Source: Ignavibacteriales bacterium
Lineage (GTDB): Bacteria; Bacteroidota; Ignavibacteria; Ignavibacteriales; Ignavibacteriaceae
DNA length: 48,077 nucleotides
Assembly (NCBI GenBank): GCA_020061465.1
Contig: JAGUYG010000073.1
Span: 1-48,077, forward strand
Direction: 5' to 3'
This document shows positions 2,476 through 6,056 of this stretch, one piece after another. The first letter of the stretch is position 1. Each line of letters opens with the position of its first letter. The translations under genes were made by a program, and so were the position numbers. Below the pieces are notes generated by a model. The model was not told where the DNA came from and searched no databases. It saw only the letters and a program-made list of their open reading frames with translations.

Positions 2476-2506
2476 TTGACAACACGCAATCATTAACTTA
2501 TCTTTG
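2476..2506 (+). promoter_or_regulatory. Bacteroidota-type promoter of the metY leader
   Basis: TTG at 2476-2478 is followed after 20 bases by TATCTTTG at 2499-2506. This matches the -33 (TTTG/TTG) and -7 (TAnnTTTG) elements known for the Bacteroidota housekeeping sigma factor. Transcription would start near 2510-2513, leaving about 50 bases before the leader ORF at 2561. The same TTGACA could also serve as an ordinary -35 box. Confidence 0.7.
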
Positions 2507-2560
2507 CCCAAGTTTTTTATGAAATCTATAAACAAAAATATTAACACCGAATTAAAGAAC

Positions 2561-2620
2561 ATGGCTATGTGTATCTGCTGTATGATGATGAAAACATCGT
2601 CGCGGAAGGACACAGCCTAA
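2561..2620 (+). CDS. Met/Cys-rich leader peptide (attenuator uORF)
   Basis: A 19-codon ORF whose product starts MAMCICCMMMK and ends RKDTA. Codons 3-10 hold four Met and three Cys, an extreme bias for the two sulfur amino acids directly upstream of metY. The ORF lies between a good promoter and an intrinsic terminator. The Met triplet codons (2584-2590) pair with 2595-2601, and 2595-2609 can instead pair with the 5' arm of the terminator. That is the classic layout of ribosome-mediated attenuation. Its function as a leader peptide is inferred; no such peptide family is recalled. There is only a weak A-rich ribosome-binding stretch before the ATG, as is common in this phylum. Confidence 0.7.
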   Translation: MAMCICCMMMKTSSRKDTA

Positions 2621-2643
2621 AATCATTGAAATAATTTTAACTG

Positions 2644-2683
2644 AAACCCTTCCCGATGACTTAATCGAGAAGGGTTTTTTATT
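2644..2683 (+). terminator. Leader terminator 1 (attenuator)
   Basis: The 5' arm (2644-2657) and 3' arm (2664-2677) form a 14-bp stem with one C-A mismatch and a 6-base loop, followed by a T-rich run to 2683. The 5' arm segment 2648-2658 is also complementary to 2595-2599 plus 2604-2609 inside the leader ORF, so termination and antitermination would be mutually exclusive. Confidence 0.85.
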
Positions 2684-2715
2684 TTATGCCTTAACAGATT
2701 AAATATTAAAAAATA

Positions 2716-2835
2716 CTCTTATCGAGAAAGGTCGAGGGATCAGGCCCGTTGACACCTTAGCAACCGTCCCGCTTTATTGCGGGAGTCATGGTGCTAACTC
2801 CTGCCCCATTCTTTGGAATGCGGGAAAGATGAGAG
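2716..2835 (+). ncRNA. SAM-I (S-box) riboswitch aptamer
   Basis: The P1 arms CTCTTATC (2716-2723) and GATGAGAG (2828-2835) enclose the conserved S-box core: AGAAAGGTCGAGGGAT, CAGGCCC, ACACCTTAGCAACC, GGTGCTAA and the closing GGGAAAGATGAGAG. The P3-like helix is variable, with a CCCGC/GCGGG stem. SAM-I riboswitches bind S-adenosylmethionine and switch off methionine genes, usually by termination. Here the aptamer sits 107 bases before metY with a terminator immediately downstream. It is the second of two control elements in the same leader. Confidence 0.97.
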
Positions 2836-2846
2836 AAGAAGTTTTA

Positions 2847-2885
2847 AACCTCTTCGCGGATTCTTTCCCGAAGAGGTTTTTTTTT
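2847..2885 (+). terminator. SAM riboswitch expression-platform terminator
   Basis: A perfect 10-bp stem, AACCTCTTCG with CGAAGAGGTT, a 13-base loop, and a run of nine T. It starts 12 bases after the aptamer P1 helix, the usual place for the SAM-I expression platform. High SAM would favour this hairpin and stop transcription before metY. Confidence 0.92.
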
Positions 2886-2912
2886 GAATTAGATTTTTGA
2901 CTCAATTAATAA

Positions 2913-4280
<1,368 letters not shown>

Positions 4281-4348: not shown

Positions 4349-4873
4349 ATGTCGAACAACCAATTGCGTTCCACTCTCTTGAATACAATTGCACAAATAA
4401 CCGCCAACCCAAAAAATTCGAAAGTGGTCTTCAAAGCTGAAACAAAGCTGGAGCAAGGAGTTAAATGTTCCGCTAATATTAGAAATTTTTCACTCTACAT
4501 TGATGAACCGAAATCTCTTGGCGGATTGGATACTGCACCAAATCCTGTCGAACTTGTGTTGGCTGCACTTGGTGCATGCCAGGAAATTGTTTACAGCGCA
4601 TTTGCATCAATTCATAATATTCCCCTGGAAGAAGTGAAAGTTGATGTTGAAGGTTCTTTAGATTTGAAGGGAATATTTGCTCTTGATCAAAATACTCAGG
4701 CGGGCTTTAACGATATAAAATACAAAACAACAATTAAGAGTTCAGCTAATAAAGAACAGCTTGAAAAATTAATTGCCGCAGTCGAATCTCATTGCCCCTT
4801 ACTCGATACTTTAAAAAGACCGATTTCAGTAAAAGGCGAAGTACAAATATTACCGCTGACGGTTAATGTATAA
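4349..4873 (+). CDS. OsmC family protein
   Basis: A 174-residue OsmC/Ohr-fold protein. The family has two redox cysteines, one on the central helix and one near the C-terminus; here they are Cys77 (ALGACQEIVY) and Cys149 (ESHCPLLDT). Family members reduce organic or sulfur-based hydroperoxides in the cytosol. It sits between metY and metX with its own GAAGGA ribosome-binding site, so it probably belongs to the sulfur-assimilation operon, perhaps protecting it from peroxide or handling reactive sulfur species. The exact substrate cannot be read from the sequence. Confidence 0.9.
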   Translation: MSNNQLRSTLLNTIAQITANPKNSKVVFKAETKLEQGVKCSANIRNFSLYIDEPKSLGGLDTAPNPVELVLAALGACQEIVYSAFASIHNIPLEEVKVDVEGSLDLKGIFALDQNTQAGFNDIKYKTTIKSSANKEQLEKLIAAVESHCPLLDTLKRPISVKGEVQILPLTVNV

Positions 4874-4895: not shown

Positions 4896-6056
4896 ATGGA
4901 ATTGAGCATAAAGGAAAGTACAGCGATTATTGCAAAAACCGAATTTATATCTTTATTTAATGATGAAAATATTTTTAATACAGAGCTGGGCGAAATTTTA
5001 AATCGAATTGATGTTGCTTACCAGACATACGGTAAATTAAACGATGAAGGAACTAATGCCATATTAATTTGCCATGCACTAACGGGAAATGCACATGCTG
5101 CCGGTATAATAACCGAGGAAGAAATTAATGAAACTCAGTCCTACGAATTCCTTCATAGATACAATAAAATGTATTTCAATCAAACCGGCTGGTGGGATCA
5201 ACTGATAGGTCCCGGCAAAGCACTCGACACCGAAAAATACTTTGTAGTCTGCTCAAACTTTTTAGGAAGCTGTTATGGAACGACGGGCCCGACAAGTTTA
5301 AATTCAGCTACGGGTGAAAAGAATAGATTGAATTTCCCATTGGTTACCGTAAGGGATATGGTGCGGGTTCAAAAAAGACTAATAGACAAGCTTGGAATCA
5401 ATAAGCTTAAAACTATTACGGGTGGCTCATTAGGAGGTATGCAAGTACTAGAATGGGCTGTTATGTATCCCGACTTCGTTGAATCAATAATTCCTATAGC
5501 TACTGCGGCAAGACATTCAGCATGGGGAATTGCACTTAATCAAGCTGCAAGAAATGCGATTGTTAATGATCCTAACTGGCAATCGGGTAATTATCTTTTG
5601 CAGCCTGAAAAAGGATTAAGTCTTGCACGTAAGATCGCAATGATAAGTTACCGCAGCAAAGAATCTTTCGATATCAAATTTACACGTCAAAAGATACAAG
5701 AAGAAAACGGAAAAGCGCCTGCTAACTTTCAAGTTGAAAGCTACTTAGATTATCAGGGCAATAAGCTGGTGAGCAGATTTGATGCGAATACATATTTATA
5801 TATAACCTATGCAATGGACTCACATGATGTTGCATTAAACAGAGGCACACTTAAAGAAGTTTTAGGAAGCATTAAAGCTCATTCATTAAATATCGGGATA
5901 TCTTCAGATATTCTTTATCCCCCTTCAGAACAAATAGAAATTGCATCTTTAATTCCGGATTCGATTTATGCGGAGATAAATTCCGTTTACGGACATGATG
6001 CATTCTTAATTGAATTCAACCAATTAGAAAGAATGATAAAGGATTTCTTAGTATAA
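4896..6056 (+). CDS. metX: Homoserine O-acetyltransferase
   Basis: Alpha/beta-hydrolase-fold enzyme that acetylates homoserine with acetyl-CoA, giving the substrate of MetY. It has 386 residues. GGSLGGMQ holds the nucleophile (Ser178), the acid is in SSDILYPP, and the histidine is His367 in GHDAF. These form the expected triad. [20 protein letters not shown] is a MetX signature region. An AGAAGGA ribosome-binding site precedes the ATG. The gene ends at the edge of a hairpin that works best as a terminator for the opposite strand. Some family members prefer succinyl-CoA; acceptor choice is inferred from the acetyl-type neighbour metY. Confidence 0.93.

Follow-up and report, generated by a model that had tools for sequence, protein, structure and literature searches.

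Leader-peptide attenuators of the trp, his and thr type combine a short ORF rich in codons for the end product with an antiterminator and a terminator that are mutually exclusive. The spread of such systems was considered in 2010 by authors whom we take to be Naville and Gautheret. To those authors' knowledge, as worded in passages of the paper, leader-peptide systems had been demonstrated only in Proteobacteria and Actinobacteria, to which a case from bacilli was added (PMC2965389). Among sulfur genes, passages of two papers describe uORFC-8-2, an ORF with Cys codons and an intrinsic terminator before cysS in Rhodobacterales (PMC8632094), and ORFs with Cys runs before cys operons in Actinobacteria (PMC1262725). 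Tandem attenuators based on two short ORFs in one leader are described for mgtCBR of Salmonella (excerpts of PMC3641672), and the SAM-I riboswitch of Xanthomonas is described as also binding uncharged initiator tRNA (excerpts of PMC7270179). Tandems of a T-box(Met) and a SAM-I riboswitch with 'A AND NOT B' logic are given in two cases, and in the reverse order in seven (Sherlock et al. 2022, excerpts of PMC9481103).

Here we analysed a contig of an Ignavibacteriales bacterium (GCA_020061465.1, JAGUYG010000073.1), of which the whole stretch of 48,077 nt is termed the window. The leader of metY in this window very probably comprises two transcription attenuators arranged in series on one transcript, while the exact tRNA inputs of its leader peptide are less certain. 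The elements listed next lie on the forward strand. The promoter (2476–2506) consists of TTGACA at 2476–2481, a 17-nt spacer and a –10 box at 2499–2506, TATCTTTG, or TATCTT(TG), which we take to match the TAnnTTTG form of the Bacteroidota box; transcription is expected to start at about 2511–2513. The leader ORF (2519–2620; peptide MKSINKNINTELKNMAMCICCMMMKTSSRKDTA) has 33 codons and a stop codon at 2618–2620, and carries near its end the sulfur codon run ATG TGT ATC TGC TGT ATG ATG ATG (2567–2590), the proposed ribosome stall site. Segment 2, the putative antiterminator segment (CGTCGCGGAAGG, 2598–2609), has a sequence that complements the 5′ arm of terminator 1 (2643–2684, comprising segments 3:4 and a U-tract), whose hairpin starts 22 nt past the leader stop codon. 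Downstream lie a full-length SAM-I (S-box) aptamer (Rfam RF00162, 2716–2835) and terminator 2, the SAM-I expression platform (AAACCTCTTCGCGG...CCCGAAGAGGTTT plus a U-tract, 2846–2885). These precede metY (2943–4280), which encodes a Cys/Met-metabolism PLP enzyme (Pfam PF01053 Cys_Met_Meta_PP, 461.8 bits) that we take to be O-acetylhomoserine sulfhydrylase. An OsmC-like protein gene (4349–4873, Pfam PF02566) and a probable homoserine O-acetyltransferase gene (4896–6056, Pfam Abhydrolase_1), presumably metX, are probably in the same operon.

The hairpin of terminator 1 (2643–2678) has a predicted energy of –18.5 kcal/mol and is followed by TTATTTTAT, and that of terminator 2 (2846–2879) has –19.8 kcal/mol and runs into its U-tract. 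A simple terminator scan missed both forward-strand terminators, and both were recovered by folding together with our own scan. The leader region folds with a z score of –5.05, equal stability being reached in 0 of 200 shuffles, and the SAM-I region with a z score of –5.61 against shuffles. A sequence-only reading of this DNA had listed one good promoter, a terminator, a complete SAM-I aptamer, a second terminator and metY, with two well-formed terminator stems; each of these elements was located in the window.

From these parts we infer translation of the ORF, ribosome stalling, the identity of the tRNAs, termination and the response to the ligand as follows. RNA polymerase would start at about 2511, and a ribosome would load nearly at the 5′ end of the transcript, at ATG 2519. 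When charged Met- or Cys-tRNA is scarce, the ribosome would stall within 2567–2590, leaving segment 2 free to pair with the emerging 5′ arm of terminator 1, which would result in readthrough. When both tRNAs are plentiful, a ribosome at the stop codon would mask segment 2, and terminator 1 would fold and end the transcript at about 2683. Polymerases that pass terminator 1 would then encounter the SAM-I riboswitch: the SAM-bound aptamer would permit terminator 2 to form, with an end at about 2885, and without SAM the 3′ end of the aptamer would pair into terminator 2, so that metY-osmC-metX would be transcribed. The logic of the gate, 'charging low AND SAM low', would most likely be that of an AND gate that opens when sulfur amino acids are scarce and SAM is low, as the sequence-only reading had proposed. 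The checks described below, which might have overturned this tandem model, left it standing.

Leader ORFs were scored by the maximal number of Met and Cys codons within ten codons, with a threshold of at least 5. In the window run, 8 of 10 codons are sulfur codons, a value attained in 0 of 2000 dinucleotide shuffles, and the Met/Cys run of the leader is kept in relatives. The proposed 19-codon Met/Cys-rich ORF was right in its composition and probably not in its length. Its start, ATG 2561, is an internal one and was rejected in favour of ATG 2519, which is better placed, 12 nt past the –10 box, and gives an ORF of probably 33 codons. The distance from the end of the –10 box to the leader ATG is 9–14 nt in 19 of the 30 leader loci with a strong promoter; hence translation would begin near the 5′ end in these loci, and this spacing indicates that the window ORF most likely starts at ATG 2519. 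Differences at codon positions 1, 2 and 3 number 692, 616 and 932 in 16 aligned leaders, and single-base codon differences comprise 332 synonymous and 300 nonsynonymous changes, both counts being taken without a null model. These differences, with their third-position excess, resemble a coding signature, and the ORF may be translated. In-frame gaps were discounted as coding evidence because the codon alignment was built from peptides, and conservation of Met is invisible to synonymous change because Met has a single codon. The leader peptide matched no family in NCBIfam or Pfam. A search of the window's own genome with R1, a covariance model of the leader, returned as a second copy a single weak match (L313, 30 bits, E 0.24) with no leader ORF at the threshold used; one convincing copy of the leader was found in the genome.

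Across leader loci, a strong hairpin with a U-tract follows 37 of 42 leader ORFs, 15–43 nt past the stop codon, mostly with the sequence (A)GCCCTTC...GAAGGGC(T). No credible terminator was recognized in the other five (L108, which has no U-tract, L114, L216, L233 and L234), and these were omitted from the pairing, covariation and folding tests of the antiterminator, which therefore cover 37 loci. L108 / L013 retains the leader and the terminator stem but not the U-tract (GGGC is followed by AAAATATT), suggesting that the first attenuator may have decayed there. The stem of terminator 1, for which the sequence-only reading had suggested a covariation test, shows compensatory changes: changes on both sides occur in 4 of 8 stem pairs, a level reached in 0 of 500 shuffles. 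This result was obtained with a MAFFT alignment (A1) of 36 leaders, from which L066, a near-copy of L065, was omitted, and slid versions of the stem score below the true register in it.

Pairing of segment 2 with the 5′ arm of terminator 1 has an energy of –16.6 kcal/mol in the window versus –7.1 kcal/mol in shuffles. Over the 37 loci, the mean is –13.7 kcal/mol versus –8.0 kcal/mol for shuffled sequences, and a control stretch ahead of the sulfur run pairs with the same arm at a mean of –4.2 kcal/mol. The pairing is individually significant (p<0.05) in 26 of 37 loci. Segment 2 lies within the ORF in 33 of them and across the stop codon in 4. Since alignment A1 fails to register segment 2 across families, covariation of the antiterminator was assessed by permutation. 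Each segment 2 pairs better with its own terminator arm than with swapped arms (0 of 20,000 permutations over the 37 loci), and the same result was obtained with one locus per arm type (n=16; again 0 of 20,000); the combined p values for pairing and covariation ignore the relatedness of the loci. The own arm is sometimes outscored by others, the mean rank fraction being 0.24. In L214, L226 and L271, for example, a CCCTCC 5′ arm goes together with a GGAGGG antiterminator and a GAGGG closing arm.

The position of segment 2 is suited to a device controlled by a ribosome. Its start lies at a median of 36 nt past the first sulfur codon and 10 nt past the last, and its end precedes the last base of the stop codon by a median of 7 nt; with such a short distance from the last sulfur codon, a ribosome stalled there could mask segment 2. 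Folding was performed on the RNA exposed before the closing arm (arm 4) exists. When a stalled ribosome is placed on the first sulfur codon or in the middle of the run, at least 5 pairs between segments 2 and 3 form in 37 of 37 leaders, and with a ribosome at the stop codon the antiterminator forms in 0 of 37, a result that is largely built in by the assumed ribosome footprint. With no ribosome, it still forms in 27 of 37 leaders. The window leader folds a 1:2 protector hairpin, which would cause termination when the ORF is untranslated, but such a hairpin is significant (p<0.05) in just 9 of 37 leaders and is weak as a shared feature. The last two observations speak against the model in its simplest form.

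These observations also bear on whether the leader might act through translation coupling, Rho or arrest by the nascent peptide, rather than through tRNA charging at an intrinsic terminator. Some features would suit such a mechanism, namely the lack of a recognized terminator in L108, L216, L233 and L234, the MK...NI start seen by eye in many leader peptides and an SSRKDTA-like C-terminal end shared by the leaders of close relatives. An intrinsic terminator with a covarying antiterminator is nevertheless present in 37 of 42 leaders, the peptides outside the sulfur run differ between families (by eye), and codon content tracks the target gene, and we therefore judge this mechanism quite improbable.

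Placement of the promoter determines whether the two devices share a transcript. Promoters were scored as TTGACA-N16-19-TAnnTTTG-like motifs with at least 10 of 12 matches in 41 leader loci (L114 excluded), 6 of which lack SAM-I. Ahead of the leader, such a promoter occurs in 30 of 41 loci, compared with 64 of 820 shuffles. From the leader stop codon to the next element, a promoter was found in a single locus of 41, which does not exceed the shuffled rate (17 of 820). The tandem model predicts this placement, and a start of transcription after terminator 1 had been named as a refutation by the sequence-only reading. At this score no promoter was found ahead of the leader in 11 of the 41 loci, including L092 and L102 of Balneolota. 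In the window, no comparably strong promoter occurs from the leader stop codon to SAM-I. By motif, then, leader and SAM-I are both placed downstream of one promoter. By comparison, among the matches listed, 90 of 126 SAM-I loci of the class that carry no leader have a promoter no more than 110 nt ahead of the aptamer (35 of 630 in shuffles), with a median promoter-to-aptamer distance of 29 nt.

Terminator 1 might alternatively be the end of an upstream transcript, presumably thrC-proC, with the short ORF incidental and SAM-I the sole regulator of metY. A proC-like ORF, which we take to be proC, does end at 2430, about 210 nt ahead of terminator 1. However, the strong promoter lies between this gene and the leader, the terminator arm covaries with the segment at the leader stop codon, and the promoter of SAM-only relatives mostly sits directly before SAM-I. 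Furthermore, in L007, a SAM-only locus, proC ends just upstream and there is no such terminator. Arm covariation and promoter positions led us to reject an upstream operon end, a reading we consider highly improbable.

The second device is a SAM-I (S-box) aptamer by its match to RF00162 (77.1 bits with a gathering score of 44.4; E 1.6e-16; model positions 1–108 of 108), and SAM binding is predicted. It is the only RF00162 match found in the genome; cmscan at gathering scores gave RF00162 alone and no T-box in the whole window. Competition between the 3′ end of the aptamer and the terminator is the usual design of a SAM-I off-switch. In the window, TCTTTCCC of terminator 2 can pair with GGGAAAGA at the 3′ end of the aptamer; the pairing energy is –16.8 versus –11.1 in shuffles (p = 0.025). 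A terminator-like hairpin follows SAM-I in 32 of 32 tandem loci tested, weakly in L081, a count made with no shuffle control. In these loci, GGGAAAGAUGAGAG at the 3′ end of the aptamer can pair with CUCUUC...AUCUUUCCC of the terminator; this antiterminator pairing has a mean of –12.2 versus –9.5 and is significant (p<0.05) in only 9 of 32. L216, L233 and L234 carry SAM-I and were omitted from the tests of the SAM-I terminator and antiterminator. Separately, among the matches listed, 77 of 151 loci of the class (for instance L008, L011 and L018) have an RTTCTT motif no more than 40 nt ahead of the P1 stem of SAM-I, versus 74 of 1510 mononucleotide shuffles. It mostly starts 13–22 nt from P1, occurs in loci with and without a leader, and could pair with AAGAAC in the aptamer.

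To follow the tandem across relatives, we used SAM-I loci of related genomes (23 of 59 genomes), 80 named metY loci, which were scanned with Rfam for SAM-I, and SAM-I loci from the class and the phylum. A leader was found in 20 of 41 named loci with metY and SAM-I, and in 24 of 49 after eight relatives' loci were added by hand (5 with a leader by eye and 3 without). As controls over the 49 loci, dinucleotide shuffles gave a leader in 0 of 980 cases and reverse strands in 0 of 49. A leader is also present in 5 of 39 named metY loci without SAM-I upstream, and in 0 of 4 named loci with metH and SAM-I. L293, a 10-base placeholder, was dropped. In the class sample, which took in 100 listed places besides the loci returned by searches, 24 of 151 SAM-I loci among the matches listed carry a leader. 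By gene, again among the matches listed, these are 19 of 115 for metY, 0 of 18 for metH, 0 of 3 for metX and 5 of 15 for others. In the rest of the phylum, the leader was found in 0 of 49 loci, 30 of which were the best-scoring ones and largely one family.

The order promoter, leader, terminator, SAM-I, terminator, metY, which the sequence-only reading had suggested looking for in related leaders, recurs, but roughly half of the named loci with metY and SAM-I have no leader. Since it is missing there and in 96 of 115 metY loci with SAM-I in the class (among the matches listed), metY can be controlled without the leader. We also discarded the idea that this ORF is a constant part of SAM-I leaders, given its absence from the 18 metH loci (among the matches listed) and from the 49 loci sampled elsewhere in the phylum. 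The leader element was found in Ignavibacteria and Balneolota; its named carriers are metagenome-assembled genomes of Ignavibacteria-like bacteria and the three Balneolota collection strains Fodinibius roseus, F. sediminis and Gracilimonas mengyeensis. In L092, L094 and L102 of Balneolota, a protein of about 165 residues, presumably CoA-binding-like, is encoded between the leader/SAM-I element and metY.

R1 gave matches in 43 of 116 related genomes. A leader ORF at threshold is present in 28 of 43 inspected R1 loci, so R1 is not fully specific; among the 15 others, L322 is the known L015 locus, with a score of 4. This search revealed two leaders in series before metY, with Met-rich ORFs, in L326, L329–L332, L335, L336 and L338. 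No SAM-I was found by Rfam in these eight loci. Seven of them were examined: a promoter was found solely ahead of the first leader's sulfur run, and 6 of the 7 have both terminators. In one genome, G018, where no SAM-I was detected, R1 has seven matches (L328 and L343–L347 among the loci); leader ORFs stand before two putative secreted proteins and before one metY, and three inspected loci have no leader ORF at threshold.

Leaders also precede other sulfur genes. They occur before cysK-like genes in L333, L342 and L349, and together with SAM-I before cysH-like genes in L150 and L357. In addition, L348 has a leader before a gene that we take to be sulfite reductase. Pfam gave PAPS_reduct for L150 and, for the 45-residue piece of L333, PALP just below the cut-off; the 45-residue piece downstream in L348 had no Pfam match, and the remaining cysK- and cysH-like names rest on likeness by eye. 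At the cysH-like loci L327, L352, L358 and L360, a second ORF ends in a Cys run directly before its stop codon, and L358 and L360 have no first leader ORF at threshold. This Cys-ending ORF lies about 300 nt upstream of the cysH-like gene, after the first leader or R1 match and its terminator, and no credible intrinsic terminator was recognized after it in L327, L352 and L358. L323 has two Cys-ending ORFs, with no downstream gene identified. Furthermore, Cys-rich leaders with SAM-I stand before DsrE/DsrF-like genes in L216, L226, L233 and L234, an assignment made by Pfam (DrsE_2) for L234 alone, which the other three look like. On the L226 contig, metY follows about 1.4 kb after SAM-I, which suggests one operon.

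The codon content of the leader follows the target gene. Runs of 36 metY leaders contain 142 Met and 109 Cys codons, those of double-leader metY loci 72 Met and 14 Cys (seven loci), and Cys exceeds Met in 10 of 12 leaders of cysK-, cysH- and sulfite-reductase-like genes (52 Cys and 24 Met overall). This composition bears on which tRNA is read. If the leader sensed essentially cysteinyl-tRNA, with the Met codons minor, the gate would be 'Cys low AND SAM low'. Such a sensor would add independent information where SAM-I already covers the Met branch, and it would fit the Cys codons in 35 of 36 metY leader runs, the L227 run without Met and the dominance of Cys before cys genes. The excess of Met over Cys in metY leaders, the L076 run without Cys and the strong Met bias of the double-leader loci without SAM-I point the other way, and we regard the Cys-only sensor as unlikely. 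A leader read by both Met- and Cys-tRNA is the reading that we retain.

Taking these loci together, we lean towards the view that the sulfur regulon of Ignavibacteria and Balneolota is built from interchangeable serial attenuators. A Met/Cys leader read by the ribosome would be followed by SAM-I (metY, cysH-like and DsrE-like genes) or, at metY loci lacking SAM-I, by another Met-rich leader, or would stand alone (metY and cysK-like genes), with its codon mix tuned to the branch. In an unrooted metY tree of 64 rows obtained by a short search (L090 was classed manually as double-leader because it matches L338; L332 was omitted), well-supported branches force at least 5 changes of the tandem state; being unrooted, the tree does not tell gain from loss. 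Seven double-leader and two single-leader rows cluster together as nine (support 97), and their neighbours include rows that carry SAM-I and others that have neither device. If this view is correct, the regulon would follow a general 'charging AND metabolite' logic and would offer a natural series of loci where a riboswitch and a leader peptide take each other's place. Since some relatives have just the leader, some just SAM-I, some both and some two leaders, sensor interchangeability is testable. Such natural variants also allow one to ask what is gained from a second sensor if SAM and Met levels are coupled, and the culture-collection carriers (Fodinibius and Gracilimonas) make experiments feasible.

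The arrangement is conserved and coherent as a mechanism, and its individual parts are of known kinds. What appears new is that they are combined in series, how widely this occurs, and the alternative of two successive leaders. No serial pairing of a leader peptide and SAM-I was found among the matches listed in full-text literature with incomplete coverage of subscription journals, which is weak evidence of absence, nor in passages of PMC2965389, PMC9413887, PMC1262725, PMC2258182, PMC9481103, PMC12452182 and PMC8632094. No description of leader-peptide attenuation in the phyla concerned was found in literature of likewise incomplete coverage. The arrangement would place two textbook RNA controls of amino-acid genes, attenuation mediated by a ribosome and a riboswitch for a metabolite, on a single transcript that serves one pathway.

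With the trp, his and thr attenuators, the metY leader shares a codon-rich leader ORF and a competing antiterminator and terminator. It differs from them in being directed to sulfur amino acids, in a start codon near the 5′ end, in a 1:2 protector that is weak in many members, and in the riboswitch or second leader that follows. As described in passages of their papers, uORFC-8-2 and the Actinobacteria ORFs have in common with the window a short ORF with Cys codons before sulfur genes, but they belong to other phyla and are single devices with no SAM-I partner described there. Like mgtCBR, as given in excerpts of PMC3641672, the locus would have leader ORF control over transcription of the coding region; the signals and genes of mgtCBR are different, and no SAM riboswitch is part of it there. 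As in the model proposed here, a single leader of the Xanthomonas system senses SAM as well as the charging of Met-tRNA in the control of methionine synthesis; according to the abstract, which includes no leader ORF, it is one riboswitch that binds the tRNA directly and acts mainly on translation (PMC7270179). Functionally, the T-box(Met)/SAM-I tandems are the nearest described design: as excerpts of PMC9481103 show, they are also serial attenuators in which Met-tRNA charging is read first and SAM second, and no word beginning with 'peptide' or 'attenuat' appears in the main text of that paper. By comparison, the metY leader would sense charging through a ribosome that translates its ORF rather than through direct binding of tRNA to a T-box, and would respond to Cys-tRNA too.
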